The position numbers and the translations under genes were made by a program. Shown here one piece after another: positions 46,689 to 55,013 of a DNA stretch of 64,000 nucleotides. Source of the DNA: Adhaeretor mobilis (GTDB lineage: Bacteria; Planctomycetota; Planctomycetia; Pirellulales; Lacipirellulaceae); contig NZ_CP036263.1 in assembly GCF_007741515.1 (NCBI RefSeq), forward strand, positions 930,001 to 994,000. The letters are read 5' to 3'. Each line of letters starts with the position of its first letter. Positions within the stretch are counted from its first letter, which is position 1. The notes below the pieces were generated by a model, which saw only the letters and a program-made list of their open reading frames with translations, had not been told where the DNA came from and did not search any database.

Positions 46689-48182
46689 CTATCGCCCGCC
46701 GCTGAGAGTTTTGGCTACATCGGTGCGATAGGCGGTCAAAGCGGGTAGAAAACCGACCAAAGCAGCGAAAACCAGCAGCCCCGGCACAAGTAGCCACTCT
46801 TCAGGGCTCGTCTGCCAGGGAGCCACCATAACGCCGGTGTAACGTTCCACAATGGGGCTCGCCACAGCCAGAATACCGTGTCCCAGTAGCATGCCCGCGA
46901 TACCGCCCAGCAGTGCCAGCAGCACGGACTCGAACAACACAATCAGCATTACTGCCGAGCGCTTCGCCCCCAGGGCACGCATGACGGCAATATCGTGACT
47001 GCGCTCGCTCATCGAATTGTAGATACTCACCAGAATGCTAATGCCGGCCACAACCACGATCATGATGGTCAGCACCAGCAGGATCATGCGCATGGGCGCG
47101 AGAAATCCATCGGCCAATTGCGCAACCACTCCGCGCGGCGCAACAACCTGCACCGTGCGATCGATACCCTTATTGATTTGCCGATCGATCTCACCCGCGT
47201 AGAAGGGGCTTTTGCAAAGGACTAGGATCGAAGTGACCTCGCGCTGCGCGCGAGGCAAAGGCTTTGTGCCATCGGCGGCCAGTGGTAACGGCTTCTCGGT
47301 GGTACTTGTAGCGGTTTTCGGGAGTTCATAACCCTCCGAAGGAGCAAATACTAGCTGGTCGTTGGAAGTACCGGTCGGCCCGAGTACGGCCAAAACGCTA
47401 CTGCGCGCTTCGCCTTCCGCTTTCGAGGGCAACTTGTCTCCCACATTCAGGCCACTCCCAGAGGCGACTTTCGACCCGAGCACCACGGGCCGCTGTACTG
47501 CCGTTTTTGCAGAGAGCGCGTGACCTTCCTGCAGGTAGAAACCTTCCATGTTGATGAACATGGCCCGGTCGTTGGCCGTGCCTGTGGGAGCGAGCACCCC
47601 GACGACGGTGAATTTGTCGTGATCCCCCTGGTCGCTACTAATGCCATGGGCCGGGCGGAATTTGTCGCCTACGCCGAGGCCTGTCTTATAGGCAGCAACA
47701 CTGCCCAAGACGGCCTCGTAATAGTTCTCTCGTTGGAAGTTCTCGCCTTCGGCAAATTCGTACTGCTTGTCTGCTGCGTAGGAAATTTTACTAAACATGT
47801 CAGGCGTGGTAGCCACAACACGCAGGCGAGTGCCGTCGTTTGCTTCGTAGCTATCGCCTAAGCAGATCGGGATCGCCGCTTCCGTGTAGGGGGCGTACTC
47901 GCCGCCATCGACGAACTTCTCGTAATAGCTATACGAAACTGGGTACAGCGGCGTGCCCAAATGGAACACCGTGCTGAGCACCACTTCAAACTTGCTGCCC
48001 TTCCCTCCCCCGACGATGACGTGATAGCCCTGCGCATCGTTGGTAAGCTGGTTCACCACCACTCCGTGAATGACCAGCACCAGAATCATCAGCGCTACGC
48101 CTAGCGCCATGGAAAAGGCTGTGAGCGTAGAGGCAAGAGCTCGCTGTTGGAGGTTTCGCCAGGCGATCTTCCAGAAACTCAT
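46689..48182 (-). CDS. ABC transporter permease, MacB/FtsX type
   Basis: 497-residue permease with the N-terminal helix and large periplasmic MacB_PCD-like domain (~40-350). Three FtsX helices follow at ~370-490, with SIYNSMSERSHDIAVMRALGAKRSAVM, the usual coupling-helix signature. Its start overlaps the ATPase stop by 4 nt. These transporters work by mechanotransmission or by lipoprotein/small-molecule extrusion rather than classic import. The context with DUF3299 proteins suggests work on an envelope metal or metalloprotein. Confidence 0.9.
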   Translation of the reverse strand: MSFWKIAWRNLQQRALASTLTAFSMALGVALMILVLVIHGVVVNQLTNDAQGYHVIVGGGKGSKFEVVLSTVFHLGTPLYPVSYSYYEKFVDGGEYAPYTEAAIPICLGDSYEANDGTRLRVVATTPDMFSKISYAADKQYEFAEGENFQRENYYEAVLGSVAAYKTGLGVGDKFRPAHGISSDQGDHDKFTVVGVLAPTGTANDRAMFINMEGFYLQEGHALSAKTAVQRPVVLGSKVASGSGLNVGDKLPSKAEGEARSSVLAVLGPTGTSNDQLVFAPSEGYELPKTATSTTEKPLPLAADGTKPLPRAQREVTSILVLCKSPFYAGEIDRQINKGIDRTVQVVAPRGVVAQLADGFLAPMRMILLVLTIMIVVVAGISILVSIYNSMSERSHDIAVMRALGAKRSAVMLIVLFESVLLALLGGIAGMLLGHGILAVASPIVERYTGVMVAPWQTSPEEWLLVPGLLVFAALVGFLPALTAYRTDVAKTLSGGR

Positions 48183-48862
48183 GCGACCACCCCACTGCTT
48201 TTTGAAACACGATTGATCGCTTCGAGTTCTTCGACACGTTCGAATTGGTCAGCCACCTCAGGTGTGTGCGTTACTAGTAGCAAGGCGACTTCCTCCTGCT
48301 GGCACGATTCACGTAGCAAATCGACCACCTGTTGCTGATGGGCAGGATCGATGTTGGCCGTCGGTTCGTCGGCCAAGAGCAAGACGGGTCGATTGACCAG
48401 CGCCCGCGCGACGGCTACGCGTTGTTGTTCACCCACTGAAAGTGAACTCGGCTTGTGCGTGAGCCGATGATTCAGCCCCACTTGCTCTAGCAAAGTGGCA
48501 GCACGCTGGGGGTCGGCCTTCTGCTTGGTGAAGGTCATCCCCAGCAGCACGTTTTCTAATGCGGTGAATGCTGGTAGCAAATTGAAGGTTTGGAAGACGA
48601 AGCCAATGTGCTGGGCGCGAAAGCGATCGCGTGTTGCCTCAGGCAGGCCCACCAAGTCGCGCCCATTGATCTCGATGCGTCCTGAATCGACCGTCGTCAG
48701 CCCGGCGATACAATTCAGCAACGTGGTCTTCCCGCCGCCGCTCCGTCCGCGCAGGACGACCTGCTCGCCGCGATCCACAGCCAGGCGGGGGACATCTAAA
48801 ATATCCAGCCGGCTGCCGTCGGGTTCGGCGTAGGACTTGCGGACGTCTTCAAGTAGGAGCAT
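48179..48862 (-). CDS. ABC transporter ATP-binding protein, LolD/MacB type
   Basis: ATPase of 227 residues from ATG 48862 (MLLLEDVRKSYAEPDGSRL). The frame is open to 48907. Walker A is LRGRSGGGKTTLLNCIAG, the Q-loop is FVFQTFNLLPAFTA, the signature is SSLSVGEQQRVAVARAL, Walker B is LLLADEPTANID and the switch is VTHTP. The signature SVGEQQR departs from SGGQQQR. It is first in the five-gene operon ending at 43688. Confidence 0.92.
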   Translation of the reverse strand: MLLLEDVRKSYAEPDGSRLDILDVPRLAVDRGEQVVLRGRSGGGKTTLLNCIAGLTTVDSGRIEINGRDLVGLPEATRDRFRAQHIGFVFQTFNLLPAFTALENVLLGMTFTKQKADPQRAATLLEQVGLNHRLTHKPSSLSVGEQQRVAVARALVNRPVLLLADEPTANIDPAHQQQVVDLLRESCQQEEVALLLVTHTPEVADQFERVEELEAINRVSKSSGVVA

Positions 48863-48970
48863 CGGTGGAAATATAGGGTTGGGAGCCACTGCTGGCTTGC
48901 CCAGCACTGTTTTAGCAAGCTAGGTATGATAGCGGGACGGGCAGAGGGGCAACAGGCGAGCCATGCAAGA

Positions 48971-49002
48971 AGAATAGGACGCGTTCATCTGCGTCCTATT
49001 CT
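48971..49002. other. Perfect 12-bp hairpin
   Basis: AGAATAGGACGC and GCGTCCTATTCT flank an 8-nt loop. CAAGA/TCTTG outside could extend the stem past a GAAT bulge. It lies ~110 bp upstream of the ABC ATPase start, in its leader or promoter region on the minus strand. Confidence 0.6.
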
Positions 49003-49322
49003 GAATTCTTGGAACTTACTCTGGGGGCAAACCTTACAATTCTACGCACACCTTCTTACAAAGTTCGCATGTGGCCAGATTCCTCCGGTGAATAGGCCAA
49101 ATGTCGTAAGTCCAATGAGGGAAGGAGGTTTTGCTAATCGGCCACCCCTGCGAGGCTCCTTTGGCACCCGATTCGCATTAGTTCTCAGCAACGATCAAAA
49201 CGAGAGCCGCCTGCCCTGCCCGTCCGAGCAAGGTACCCCAACAAGGCATAATCGCTCTGCCAGCCGTCACGGCAACTGATCAATTCACCATCGCCTCCCC
49301 GCGATGGTTCGCCCCCCGCGAA

Positions 49323-49365
49323 GAGGGCCGACGAGGAACCCGCACCTCGCCGGCCCTCTTTTTTT
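49323..49365 (+). terminator. Strong plus-strand rho-independent terminator with no gene before it
   Basis: Stem GAGGGCCG.CGAGG / CCTCG.CGGCCCTC with loop AACCCGCA is followed by seven T. All neighbouring genes are on the minus strand, so this should end an unannotated plus-strand RNA. Confidence 0.8.
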
Positions 49366-49441
49366 GGCTAGTGTAAAATCTCGACCTCATAAGTAGGGTA
49401 GGCCTCGCCTCATGGTACGCCTCGCGAAGTTGCGGTGGGCA

Positions 49442-49481
49442 ATAAAAAAAAATAGCCTCCAAGGAAAGGCTCCTTGGAGGC
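49442..49481 (-). terminator. Rho-independent terminator of the histone-like gene
   Basis: Perfect 11-bp stem GCCTCCAAGGA/TCCTTGGAGGC, loop of 5. It is followed on the minus strand by TATTTTTTTTTATT. It lies 35 bp after the stop codon. Confidence 0.9.
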
Positions 49482-49515: not shown

Positions 49516-49887
49516 CTAAGCCTGGAGTTTTTGCAGGGAGTCCACCAGCGACTTCGCTTCTTCGATGCTACCAACCTGTTGCACAAACTTTTGTGCGTGA
49601 AGTAGTCCGGAGAAGCTTACCCTGTCGTTGGTTGCCGCGCTGGCTGCCTTAGCCTTTGTAGCACGCGTTACCTTCGCTGGTTTCTTATTGCCCCCCTTCA
49701 TCTTGCTAATAACCGTACTCACTTGAGCAGGGGCAACTTTGATCCCCTTCTTGGCAAGTGCGCGACTAATATCGGTTGGTCCGACTTTCGGATTAGCCTT
49801 TGCGAACTCGCGGATGGCAGCGCTCTTGTTCACTTTCTTCTTTGCCGTAGTCTTTTTGGCAGCTTTCTTCGTGGCAGTTCTTGCCAT
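49516..49887 (-). CDS. Small Lys/Ala-rich DNA-binding-like protein (histone H1-like tail)
   Basis: 123 residues from ATG 49887, which is preceded by GAGGGG with ~8-nt spacing. The N-terminal tail MARTATKKAAKKTTAKKK is H1-like. The middle part (AAIREFAKANPKVGPTDISRALAKKGIKV) looks like a small helix-turn-helix domain. A second Lys/Ala-rich stretch and a short helical C-terminus follow. It is probably a nucleoid-associated protein. It is monocistronic with its own terminator and strong ribosome site, fitting an abundant protein. The fold assignment is inference. Confidence 0.82.
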   Translation of the reverse strand: MARTATKKAAKKTTAKKKVNKSAAIREFAKANPKVGPTDISRALAKKGIKVAPAQVSTVISKMKGGNKKPAKVTRATKAKAASAATNDRVSFSGLLHAQKFVQQVGSIEEAKSLVDSLQKLQA

Positions 49888-50129
49888 TACAAACCCCTCA
49901 ATCAATCAAAGTATATGGTACAGATGCATCAGAGTGATGCCTCTCTATATGATATAAGCATATTGTTGCTAGCTATACTTCGGCAAGAGGCATTACTCTT
50001 GAAATCGAATGTACTAAATACCGCCTCCGCAAATAGACAATCAATTATGGCGATTTATATACCGTTTACAAATCTTGCTATACTGCTGAGGAGATAATGT
50101 CTCATTAGACGCTCTTGAGGCCGCCCTGC

Positions 50130-50993
50130 ATGCGAAGCATATTTATCGACCGCGAGTCTCTTGTCGGCAAGTCGTTGCCCATGATACTGACTCTCTTGCC
50201 TTGGCTATTGGGAGTTGCCCCGTTTGTTGCCTATTCCCAGGCTGCGGCGGGCACGACGCAGGTGGCGTTGTTTACCGGCTTTCTTGCTGGTGCGAATGCC
50301 GGGATGGACAATCTGAACGCGACACTCGCGGCTTCGAATATACCGAACTACGACGGAATGGTTTTCGACTGGGATCGAAAGGAAGAAGCCTTTGATTGGA
50401 TCAACATGGCTACCGCTGGCCGGTCGACGCTCGTTATCGTTGGCCACAGTTTCGGTGGCAACAGTACCCTGCAACTAGCCAATAATTTCCTAAAAGATGT
50501 CGGAATCGATGTTGATTTAACGATCCAGGTCGACTCGGTGGAAAACTTTCACGGCGGCTGGAACAACTTGCTGCCCAGCAATGTCGATGTCGGTCACAAC
50601 TACTACCAGAATTCCACCGGCTTCTTTGAGCCTCAGGGAGAAGACTTTGTCCAAAGGGCAACGAATGTTAATGCTGAGGTATTGTTCAGCGACACTTCGA
50701 TAACCCATACGTCCTTGGATAACGATCTACGCTTGTATGATGAGATTGAGCTGAGGATATTGGATAACATGAATTCAACGAGCGGAGACTTCAACTTCGA
50801 TGACAACGTCGACGGCTTAGATTTTCTAAGCTGGCAGCGGAATCCTAGTATAGGATTATTAAGCGATTGGGAGGAGAACTACGGCCTAGCATCGCCGCTG
50901 GTGGTTAATACTGCGACGGTGCCAGAGCCTGCGATCTTCGCGCTCGCGCTGACCGCAAGTAGCCTCATGCTAAGCAGACGGTATACTGCTTGA
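50130..50993 (+). CDS. Secreted alpha/beta-hydrolase-like protein with dockerin and PEP-CTERM anchor
   Basis: 287 residues from ATG 50130; ATG 50181 is an alternative that gives a shorter signal peptide. A signal sequence (MILTLLPWLLGVAPFVAYSQA) is followed by a lipase-like nucleophile elbow, VIVGHSFGGNST. SITHTSLDN could provide the His. Near the end is a planctomycete dockerin repeat (GDFNFDDNVDGLDFLSWQR), and the terminus VPEPAIFALALTASSLMLSRR is a PEP-CTERM sorting signal. It is probably exported and anchored for a surface role. Esterase activity is inferred from the elbow only; no clear third catalytic acid was located. Confidence 0.85.
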   Translation: MRSIFIDRESLVGKSLPMILTLLPWLLGVAPFVAYSQAAAGTTQVALFTGFLAGANAGMDNLNATLAASNIPNYDGMVFDWDRKEEAFDWINMATAGRSTLVIVGHSFGGNSTLQLANNFLKDVGIDVDLTIQVDSVENFHGGWNNLLPSNVDVGHNYYQNSTGFFEPQGEDFVQRATNVNAEVLFSDTSITHTSLDNDLRLYDEIELRILDNMNSTSGDFNFDDNVDGLDFLSWQRNPSIGLLSDWEENYGLASPLVVNTATVPEPAIFALALTASSLMLSRRYTA

Positions 50994-51389: not shown

Positions 51390-54300
51390 GTGAATCTACA
51401 GAAATATCTCCATCGTAATGAAATCCGTGCGCAAGGGCTGTTGGCACTGCCCACGCTTGTCTTATTACGCGCTCTGGCAGGGGACGGAACACCCGGCCGG
51501 CACTGGGCAGGTACCCTGTGCCGCGTTGCCGCTCTTTGTGCGGCGATGACGATGCTCGGCACCGGCACGCCCGCCTCCGCAGACAACTACACCTGGGACG
51601 GCGAGTTCAACAACACCTGGGACTTCACCGACGGCGGCTTCATCTTCTATAGCAACTGGGATACCGAGGGCTTCCAGAGCCCAGACCTGCCCGGCAGCGG
51701 GGACAACGTCTTCTTCTCACACGACAACGACGGCAACACCGACATCGACCTCAACGGCAGCCGGTCGGTCAACGACATCACTTTTGGGTCTGACCAATAC
51801 AGTCTCGCCAACGGCACGCTCACGGGAAACAGACTGTTCATCAACGACAACCTGACCCTCCAGAGCGATGCCACGTTGACGATCAACGGGCCCAGTTCGC
51901 TGGGGTCGGGCAGGACGCTGAGAATCCACGGCCAGTACAACGCCAACGGCGGCATCACGCTTGCCGACTTCACGGTCTTGAACGTCACCGAACAGGCCGG
52001 CCCGGCGCGCAGCTTCACCCTCGGCTCCGGCAGCATGCTCACCGCCTTCGACCAGACCCAGCTCAACTTCACCGGCGACTACGAGGTCGACAACAACGCG
52101 ACGTTCGACCTCAACAGCGGCTCGGACTGGACCCTCACCGAGCGCTTGAATATCGGGAACGGCTCGAACGGCACCGTCGACCTCAACGGCCTGGGCACGA
52201 CCCTCGTCGCCGGTGGCGCGGCCCCGTCCGCCCTGGGACTCTCCGGCGCGACCGGCACCCTCACGCTGACTAGCGACGCCACCGCCACCTTCAACGCCGG
52301 CCTCGACATCGGCTCGGCCGCCAACCCCGGCGCGGGCGTCGTCACCCTCACCTCCGGATCCAGCTCGACCGTCACCGGCGAGTTGACCCTCGGCATGGGC
52401 ACCTCAACCGGCACCCTCACCGTCAGCGGCGACTCCGCCGTCGACGCCAACGGCGCAACCCGCATCGGCCCCGGCGGCACCCTCAACATCAACACCACCA
52501 ACGGCATCACCCCACTGCCCGCCGGCGGCGGGGTCTACCACGCCAACGGCGACGTCTTCATCGACGACGGCATCCTCAACAGCATCGAAACCCCCGCCGG
52601 CAACAGCCGATTCAACCTCGCCCCCGGCAATAACCTCACCGCCTTCAATAGCGCCCGGGTCAGACTCACCGGCGACTACACCGTCACGAACGGCTCGGTC
52701 GTCACCTTCTCCACCAGTGCCGTCGGTCAGATCACCGGCGACCTGGACATCGGCGCCGCCGTCGACTCGGGCCAAGTGACCATCTCCGGCGGCCAACTCA
52801 CAATCACCGACAGCTCGACGATCCTGCCAACCGGCACCCTCGAAATCAACTCCGGTGGAACCTATAGCGCCAACGGCGGCCTGGACAACAGCCAGGGTGG
52901 CACCCTCACCTTCACCGACGGCAACCTTAACATCACCGGCGGGGCCTACTTGCCCGACCTCAGCGAAAACTACATCCTCGATGGCGCGTCGCCGGCGGAC
53001 CTGCCCCACCTCACGCTCGGGGCCGGGGCCTCGGCAAACTTCTCAACTGCGATATTTGTCGGTGATGAAGAGAGCGGCCGCATCACGGTGTCGGGCGGAG
53101 CCGATGTCGTAGCCGCCAACGGCAGCGTACTCGGCTCAGCTACCGGTTCTTCGGGTACGGCCACGGTCACCGGCCCGGGATCGACCTGGAATAGCCCAGC
53201 CGATTTTTTTATTGGCCTTGGTGGCACCGGCACGCTCAACATCGAGGATGGCGGCGTGGTCGATAGCACGCAAGGCACCATCGGCCGAGCCGATGGTTCG
53301 ACAGGTACCGCCACGGTCACCGGCCAGGGCTCGGCTTGGTTCAATGCCGGCATCTTGCAAATCGGCCGATTCGAAAACTCCAACGGTACGCTCAACATCG
53401 TGGCCGGCGGCGCCGTCACCAATACCGAGGGTATCCTCGGAGGAGAAATCAACGCGTCCGGCACCGCCACCGTCACCGGCGGGAACTCGACCTGGGTCAA
53501 CTCGGACCTGCTCGATATCGGCTTCAACGGCACCGGCACACTCATCATCGAAGCCGGCGGCAAGGTCACCAACACCTCAGGCACCCTCGGCCTAAACAGC
53601 ACGGGGATTGGCACCGCCACCATCACCGGCACAGGCTCGCGATGGGAAAACTCGGGCACGCTCGATGTTGGCCGCACGGGCACCGGCACGCTCAACATCG
53701 AGGCCGGCGGCGTGGTCACCAATACCACCGGCAACCTCGGCCGAAACAGCTCGGGGATCGGCACCGCCACCGTCAACGGCGTGGGCTCGGCCTGGGTCAA
53801 CACCCACAGCCTCAACGTCGGACTCGCCGGCACCGGCTCGCTGACCACCAGCAACGAGGGCGCGGTCTTCATCGGCGACGCCGCGCAGGCCGGCGGCACG
53901 GGCGGCTCCATCACCATTAGCGACACCAGCGCGGACCCGGCCTTCGGCGGCCTGCTGGTCGTACAGAACAGTGGCACCCTGAGCCAAAGCCAGCCCTTCA
54001 CCCGAACCATCATCGGCGATCAAGCCAACGAGTTCGGCACCGCCACGGTCACCGGCGCGGGATCGACCTGGACCAATAACAACAACAGCGGCTACTTCAT
54101 TGTTGGGAATTCCGGCACCGGCGTCCTGAACATCGAAGATGGCGGCGTGGTGACCACGAGGGACGGCACCCTCGGCAGCGCAACAGGTGCGATGGGCACG
54201 GCCACCGTCACCGGCGCGGGATCGACCTGGAACAATACCGCGGGGTTCAATGTTGGAACGTCCGGCACCGGCATCCTGAACATCGATAACGGCGGCTCGG

Positions 54301-55013
54301 TGGTGAGCGAGAGGGCACACATCGGGAACTTTGTGAACGCGAACGGCACGGCCACCGTCACTGGCGCCGACTCCGCGTGGGACATCACGAACACTTTGAC
54401 TGTCGGTCAAATTGGCACCGGCACACTGAACGTCGAAGCGGGCGGTCACATCAGCGTCGGCGCTAGCTTTCGTTTGCAATCCTTTGGCGGCACCGCCTTC
54501 CTCAACTTCACCCTCGCCTCCACGGCCGACCCCCTGATCGATGTCGGCGAGGACGTAAACCTCGCCGGCACGCTCGGCGTCGATCTCGACCCGGGCTTGA
54601 CCCTTTCCGACGGCGACAGCTTCACCCTGATCGACATCGCCCGCACGCGCAGCGGCGTCTTCGGCAACGTCGCCGAGGGTGGCCTGCTGGGCAGTTTCAA
54701 CGGCGTCGACCTCTTCCTGACCTACACCGGCGGCGACGGCAACGATGTCGTCGCCTTTGCTGCGTTGCCAGGCGATTACGACGGAGACAGCGATGTGGAT
54801 GGGGCCGACTTTTTAACATGGCAACGCGAAGACGGAATGTCCGATGGGCTCACCGATTGGCAGGACCATTATGGAACTCAGCCACCACCCTCATCAGCGA
54901 GTGCTAGCCAAGTGCCCGAGCCGACCACTGTGGCTCTTACGCTGCTCGCATCTTGCTGCTTGCTGCTTGCTCGGTTGCCGTTCGTGCCGTCGGTGAGAAT
55001 GACCGCAGGCTAA
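51390..55013 (+). CDS. Large surface protein with T5SS/PEP-CTERM-associated repeats, dockerin and PEP-CTERM anchor
   Basis: 1207 residues. The start is GTG, with GAGAGG ~10 nt upstream and a long signal peptide ending near TGTPASA. The body is beta-helix-like. About eight repeats of ~47-50 residues with GTATVTGxGSxW...GTGTLNIEAGGxVTNTxGxLG fill residues ~587-1030 (53150-54470). They match the T5SS/PEP-CTERM-associated repeat family. Near the end are YDGDSDVDGADFLTWQRED (dockerin) and VPEPTTVALTLLASCCLLLA (PEP-CTERM). It is probably exported to the cell surface as an adhesin-like fibre or matrix protein. Codons end in G/C far more often than in the neighbours, which suggests acquisition or recombination. 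Confidence 0.9.
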   Translation: MNLQKYLHRNEIRAQGLLALPTLVLLRALAGDGTPGRHWAGTLCRVAALCAAMTMLGTGTPASADNYTWDGEFNNTWDFTDGGFIFYSNWDTEGFQSPDLPGSGDNVFFSHDNDGNTDIDLNGSRSVNDITFGSDQYSLANGTLTGNRLFINDNLTLQSDATLTINGPSSLGSGRTLRIHGQYNANGGITLADFTVLNVTEQAGPARSFTLGSGSMLTAFDQTQLNFTGDYEVDNNATFDLNSGSDWTLTERLNIGNGSNGTVDLNGLGTTLVAGGAAPSALGLSGATGTLTLTSDATATFNAGLDIGSAANPGAGVVTLTSGSSSTVTGELTLGMGTSTGTLTVSGDSAVDANGATRIGPGGTLNINTTNGITPLPAGGGVYHANGDVFIDDGILNSIETPAGNSRFNLAPGNNLTAFNSARVRLTGDYTVTNGSVVTFSTSAVGQITGDLDIGAAVDSGQVTISGGQLTITDSSTILPTGTLEINSGGTYSANGGLDNSQGGTLTFTDGNLNITGGAYLPDLSENYILDGASPADLPHLTLGAGASANFSTAIFVGDEESGRITVSGGADVVAANGSVLGSATGSSGTATVTGPGSTWNSPADFFIGLGGTGTLNIEDGGVVDSTQGTIGRADGSTGTATVTGQGSAWFNAGILQIGRFENSNGTLNIVAGGAVTNTEGILGGEINASGTATVTGGNSTWVNSDLLDIGFNGTGTLIIEAGGKVTNTSGTLGLNSTGIGTATITGTGSRWENSGTLDVGRTGTGTLNIEAGGVVTNTTGNLGRNSSGIGTATVNGVGSAWVNTHSLNVGLAGTGSLTTSNEGAVFIGDAAQAGGTGGSITISDTSADPAFGGLLVVQNSGTLSQSQPFTRTIIGDQANEFGTATVTGAGSTWTNNNNSGYFIVGNSGTGVLNIEDGGVVTTRDGTLGSATGAMGTATVTGAGSTWNNTAGFNVGTSGTGILNIDNGGSVVSERAHIGNFVNANGTATVTGADSAWDITNTLTVGQIGTGTLNVEAGGHISVGASFRLQSFGGTAFLNFTLASTADPLIDVGEDVNLAGTLGVDLDPGLTLSDGDSFTLIDIARTRSGVFGNVAEGGLLGSFNGVDLFLTYTGGDGNDVVAFAALPGDYDGDSDVDGADFLTWQREDGMSDGLTDWQDHYGTQPPPSSASASQVPEPTTVALTLLASCCLLLARLPFVPSVRMTAG
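53150..54470 (+). repeat. In-gene tandem repeats (about 8 copies of ~145 bp)
   Basis: Each unit encodes GTATVTGxGSxW then TGTLNIxxGGxV. The units begin near 53152, 53308, 53458, 53611, 53758, 54037, 54196 and 54346, and a longer spacer falls before the sixth. They may allow copy-number change by recombination. Confidence 0.8.

Follow-up and report, generated by a model that had tools for sequence, protein, structure and literature searches.

Several trans-acting small RNAs of Proteobacteria depend on sigma-54, namely Qrr (activated by LuxO), CrcZ (CbrB), GlmY/GlmZ (GlrR) and NrsZ (NtrC). Small RNAs with C-rich loops are represented by RoxS/RsaE of Firmicutes and by the CCUCC-motif sRNAs of Alphaproteobacteria. 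No trans-acting sRNA of Planctomycetes was found described in the literature searched, including the available text of PMC9029176. Here we analysed a stretch of 64,000 nucleotides of Adhaeretor mobilis (contig NZ_CP036263.1, positions 930,001 to 994,000), referred to in full as the window. We put the probability at roughly 0.7 that its plus strand carries, at 49188-49365, a single-copy gene for a non-coding RNA of about 178 nt, which would be driven by sigma-54, controlled by an activator and able to pair with mRNAs through C-rich loops.

A preliminary description of this DNA, made from the letters alone, had proposed a plus-strand small RNA within 48863-49366, ending at a textbook rho-independent terminator with an interrupted 14-bp stem and 7 T. 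Reading of the sequence confirmed this terminator at 49322-49365. Its arms, AGAGGGCCG-a-CGAGG and CCTCG-c-CGGCCCTCT, enclose the loop AACCCGCA (49337-49344) and form a stem of 14 pairs (9+5), interrupted once, over 49322-49359; a run of seven T comes next, at 49359-49365. The general terminator scan did not list it, because the stem is interrupted. Terminator-like sites in the scanned region numbered 7, against 3.8 expected in shuffles, and it is conservation in relatives that places the 49322-49365 terminator above chance. A second, opposed terminator had been described about 77 bp further on; the scan indeed placed one on the minus strand at 49455-49481, its A-run lying about 77 bp past the plus-strand T-run, as the terminator of the convergent gene 49516-49890. 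The proposed RNA was thus supported, as a prediction, in its strand and its end, and its extent was narrowed to about 49188-49365, the preceding part (48863-49187) being promoter region and repeats.

The surrounding genes had been described as all lying on the minus strand. This holds locally, with an ABC-transporter ATPase (48179-48862, Pfam ABC_tran), which we take to be LolD/MacB-like, and its adjoining FtsX/MacB-type permease (46689-48182, Pfam FtsX and MacB_PCD) on the left and 49516-49890 on the right, all on the minus strand; it fails beyond, where plus-strand genes begin at 50115. The 49516-49890 gene encodes a small basic Lys/Ala-rich protein with a sub-threshold Pfam DUF7445 match, perhaps histone-like, and four other loci (L058, L059, L060 and L081) have a relative of it on the RNA strand, about 0.8-1.5 kb downstream of the RNA. 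The plus-strand frames 50115-50993 and 51390-55013, read by eye, have PEP-CTERM-like product ends (VPEP...), and the product of the latter is long and repetitive.

A sigma-54 promoter, TTTGGCACCCGATTCGCA, is predicted on the plus strand at 49160-49177, with GG at 49163-49164 and GC at 49175-49176 separated by 10 bases. It is the sole zero-mismatch match to the sigma-54 consensus in the window and also its top score. From sigma-54 geometry, transcription would start at 49188, 12 nt past the C of the -12 element. Two hairpins had been assigned to the RNA region, and both exist. The one at 49287-49308 falls within the predicted transcript, whereas the strong hairpin GAATAGGACGC...GCGTCCTATTC at 48971-49002 lies 5' of the predicted promoter and so outside the RNA. 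A resembling sequence, GCGTTCGTCCGCGTCCTATTC, is present upstream of the promoter in genus mate L056, and the 48971-49002 hairpin is perhaps another dispersed repeat. One dispersed repeat, GGGTTGGGAGCCACTGCTGGCTTGCCCAGCACTG at 48876-48912, has a palindromic core, two further copies in the same genome and many copies in relatives (blastn, about 88-97% identity over 25-40 bp); these matches were set aside as unrelated to the RNA.

Comparison of 48863-49480 by blastn with 59 relatives, the own genome counted, gave matches confined to the terminator, apart from the dispersed repeat and one short match elsewhere. A covariance model (R1) was built from the C-rich stretch and terminator only, the promoter being excluded from the model. 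Within the family, R1 matched 34 of 43 genomes in 46 rows, comprising 33 homologous loci, 7 antisense rows on these loci and 6 others (L065, L082 and L209-L212). The match in the 34th genome (G008) is without promoter and was judged false, which leaves a homologue in 33 of the 43 family genomes, the own genome included. All 33 carry [TC]GGC-N9-GC 70-205 bp upstream (30 TGGC, 3 CGGC). On the RNA strand, 30 of the 33 loci have a promoter score of at least 15. The same score is reached at 2 of the 33 when the opposite strand is read, in 1.5% of dinucleotide shuffles and at none of 13 other R1 matches; four more control matches scored 10.5-14. Since the weights of the score were set after the family had been seen, these strand, shuffle and control comparisons carry more weight than the score itself. 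In the 18 family loci of a second model, R2, CGGTANAAGAG (TGG in one) begins 12-13 nt past the promoter GC, at about +1 to +3, and most genera sampled have the RNA start CGGUAGAAGAGA at the predicted +1, the window's own genus being without it.

Upstream of the promoter, the paired direct repeat TTACAA-N16-TTACAA (49034-49039 and 49056-49061, plus strand) provides putative enhancer sites. TTACAAN15-17TTACAA has a single exact occurrence in the genome (6.0 Mb), at 49034-49061. At 27 of the 33 family loci a similar pair (at most one mismatch per half, 20-24 bp apart) is found no more than 200 bp upstream of the promoter, compared with 1 of 33 for the other strand and 1.5% of mononucleotide shuffles, and it is likely to be bound by a sigma-54 activator. 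In aligned loci, the conserved blocks upstream of the terminator are a TTACAA pair with 20-23 bp between its halves, TTTGGC-N9-GC and the C-rich stretch before the stem. The conservation looked for in related genomes was thus obtained: 33 of the 43 family genomes hold a homologous unit closed by a terminator, with a promoter and, in 27 of them, activator-type sites.

The unit is probably not confined to the family. When R2, a model that itself included two loci of family f22 in another order, was run against 397 genomes of the class, it found 21 genomes, 9 in the family and 12 in one genus of f22. A pattern scan of named genomes gave two matches, in Prevotella/Bacteroidaceae MAGs, which are most likely due to chance. 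Of the 24 R1 rows outside the family, 17 were examined; six, all from f22, have the promoter (L070, L073, L075, L076, L079 and L080, at -142 to -151), and the remaining 11, without promoter, were treated as false. According to open-frame reading, the f22 units sit elsewhere, the ABC gene not adjoining: L070 and L075 have rnc next to the unit, and L070, L075 and L076 have a transglutaminase-like gene near it. The 13-mer GAGACAATCCCAC is common to two of the six f22 loci (L070 and L075), where the shuffle maxima were 12 and 11 (50 shuffles each), and just 8 bases are common in the other four. The case for homology of the f22 loci is therefore made chiefly by the position of the promoter, the start of the RNA and the loop of the terminator, and the evidence that these six are homologues of the RNA unit is moderate, making it likely.

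The predicted RNA contains the hairpin ACCAUCGC-[CUCCCC]-GCGAUGGU at 49287-49308, whose C-rich loop (49295-49300) has a predicted unpaired probability above 0.8, and the hairpin UCGC-[CCCCC]-GCGA at 49309-49321, with its loop at 49313-49317. Its C-rich loops are CUCCCC, CCCCC and ACCCGCA, as compared to UCCCACC, CUCCCC and UCCCGCA in relatives; the window version keeps the C-rich loops and not the 5' motif. In the window's genus, L048 and its mate L056 lack both CGGUAGAAGAGA and UCCCACC, and share no run longer than 7 bases in the RNA body, so the predicted RNA body is diverged in this genus. In the best-sampled genus, single folds give a purine-rich 5' end, a long stem-loop, then a C-run and a terminator with UCCCG in its loop; many also show a GAGAC...GUCUC hairpin, or an open stretch, with UCCCACC between the long stem-loop and the C-run. 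The closing arms of this long stem-loop differ by species yet pair in 11 of 12 sequences (for example CGATCGG/CCGATCG, GCGACGAA/TTCGTCGT and GTGGTCGGC/GCCGATCAC), L057 fitting poorly; this is a comparison sequence by sequence and not a formal covariation test. RNAalifold on MAFFT alignments recovered essentially the terminator alone, missing the variable stem because it is misaligned. In alignment A1 the terminator is paired in 95.6% of cells, but its covariation was not clearly beyond shuffles. Folding was more stable than in shuffles (z of -3.42 for 48863-49367 and -2.17 for 49050-49367), which is partly owing to the terminator.

An RNA of this kind could also titrate a protein, in the manner of a CsrA sponge, instead of pairing with mRNAs. 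The f22 versions show GGAGG or GGAGA in a short hairpin, and csrA is among the genes with sigma-54 promoters in a planctomycete, as reported in the part of PMC12316311 available. A sponge would be expected to expose many GGA in loops, however, and 49188-49366 (179 nt) has a single GGA while the conserved motifs are C-rich. We regard titration as improbable, though it fares best among the alternatives to an mRNA-pairing RNA.

Scarcely behind it stands the proposal that these elements are simply the promoter region of the divergent ABC-transporter operon, with no separate trans-acting RNA. At 13 of 13 inspected terminator-match loci an ABC-transporter ATPase gene runs away on one side, many of them having a folC-like gene on the other (from reading of translations), and an ABC-transporter gene lies within 1.5 kb at 31 of the 33 family loci. 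The sigma-54 site and the terminator, however, both face away from the ABC gene, and no ABC gene was found near the unit in L044, L050 and the six f22 loci. The ABC gene also persists in genomes without the unit. Eleven genomes were searched for the ABC gene and the sequence upstream of it was read in the nine positive ones. Five loci (L135, L139, L140, L141 and L142) keep the ABC gene and have no TTACAA pair or promoter-terminator unit alongside, L139 and L141 showing isolated weak GG-N10-GC matches; two (L134 and L137) are known RNA carriers, and L136 and L138 end too early to judge. Promoter, TTACAA sites and terminator are lost together while the ABC gene stays, that is, as a unit. We consider the operon explanation improbable too.

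A conserved promoter and terminator would equally be shown by a sigma-54-driven mRNA that encodes a very small protein and ends at the terminator, and frames do occur inside the transcript in L070 (46 codons, TTG start) and L062 (31 codons, GTG start). The preliminary description had seen no protein-like frame, and this was borne out: no conserved reading frame was present among 14 transcripts inspected, 8 of which, including both of the window's genus, have no frame of at least 12 codons, while the frames of the others differ in place and sequence. Transcript lengths also differ by non-multiples of three. A small-protein mRNA is a slightly poorer explanation than the operon. A divergent housekeeping RNA (6S, SRP, tmRNA or RNase P), which size range and single copy would allow, is the least credible, as no Rfam family reached its gathering score and several relatives have lost the unit, which is hardly expected of such an RNA. 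The comparison with known RNA models that had been suggested covered the window region and 15 homologous loci, and no family, Qrr, CrcZ, GlmY, 6S, SRP, tmRNA and others included, scored above its gathering threshold; permissive matches (E up to 10) were weak and implausible, belonged to unrelated families and were rejected.

For a sigma-54-driven RNA the machinery is at hand, as the genome encodes rpoN and 16 strong sigma-54 activator proteins. We compared the presence of these activators in two RNA carriers (G018 and G072) and two non-carriers (G029 and G013), five genomes in all, one of them 93% complete. L088 is the sole one of the 16 with reciprocal best matches in G018 and G072 (61% and 49% identity, respectively) and none in G029 and G013, where there are paralogue-level matches only (314 and 308 bits). 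It has receiver (REC), AAA+ and Fis-type domains and an adjoining Hpt gene, and its relative in G018 adjoins a PAS hybrid kinase with Hpt. L088 is thus a candidate for the activator of the RNA, a lead to be read in the light of few genomes. Sigma-54-like sites (L206, 10317-10334 and 14815-14832) also lie shortly upstream of CsbD-like and DUF892 genes (Pfam), roughly 2 and 6 kb away from L088; they were discounted, being no stronger than other matches in that stretch.

We infer the following sequence of events. Sigma-54 RNA polymerase would sit at 49160-49177, silent until an activator arrives. An NtrC-type activator, for which the response regulator L088 (REC-AAA-Fis) is the best candidate, would bind the TTACAA pair, which precedes the start by about 127-154 bp, and its phosphorylation would permit transcription, the RNA ending at the intrinsic terminator. 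With an Hpt gene next to L088, synthesis of the RNA would respond to a phosphorelay signal. The most likely partners of the C-rich loops would be G-rich stretches close to the ribosome-binding sites of several mRNAs. Of 46 window genes, just 10 have a Shine-Dalgarno-like motif in front (background 6.6%), which makes an anti-Shine-Dalgarno reading less convincing, and Pfam did not find Hfq (PF17209) in the own genome (about 92% complete), while finding it in 5 of 14 control genomes. Taken together, these leave pairing at ribosome-binding sites plausible and unproven.

According to the available part of PMC12316311, stress-related genes (MscS, UspA, chaperones) and csrA have more than their share of the sigma-54 promoters predicted in Planctomycetia, which suggests a stress role for the RNA. 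A wider and rather speculative proposal is that it is an old planctomycete riboregulator, controlled by sigma-54 and a phosphorelay, which retunes or shuts off many mRNAs through at least three C-rich loops without Hfq; it might be the RNA arm of the sigma-54 stress response, its private activator gained and lost along with it. The words sRNA and small RNA are absent from the main text of that survey, suggesting that sigma-54 regulon surveys centred on protein genes, as this one is in its available part, miss RNA members.

With its own predicted sigma-54 promoter, and retained by the majority of the relatives searched and probably by a single group further away, the RNA looks like an undescribed regulatory family. 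Together, the conserved RNA, its promoter, its activator sites and the single candidate activator give Planctomycetes an sRNA circuit open to testing, and this in an organism in which Hfq was not found. The locus has the features of sigma-54-dependent sRNAs, as predicted from sequence: a GG-N10-GC promoter, upstream sites, rpoN and NtrC-type activators in the genome, a non-coding transcript and an intrinsic terminator. Like Qrr, CrcZ, GlmY/GlmZ and NrsZ, it would be a stand-alone intergenic RNA with a -24/-12 promoter, upstream activator sites, an intrinsic terminator and an NtrC-type activator, here a candidate. Unlike them, it belongs to another phylum, has no Rfam match and no Hfq detected by Pfam, and shows C-rich loops in place of Qrr or CrcZ motifs. 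With RoxS/RsaE and the CCUCC-motif sRNAs it appears to have in common a number of exposed C-runs that could pair with G-rich ribosome-binding sites, whereas its promoter class is another and no homology to them was found. By these features it is, as a predicted RNA, a new family of a known kind, the sigma-54-dependent sRNA.
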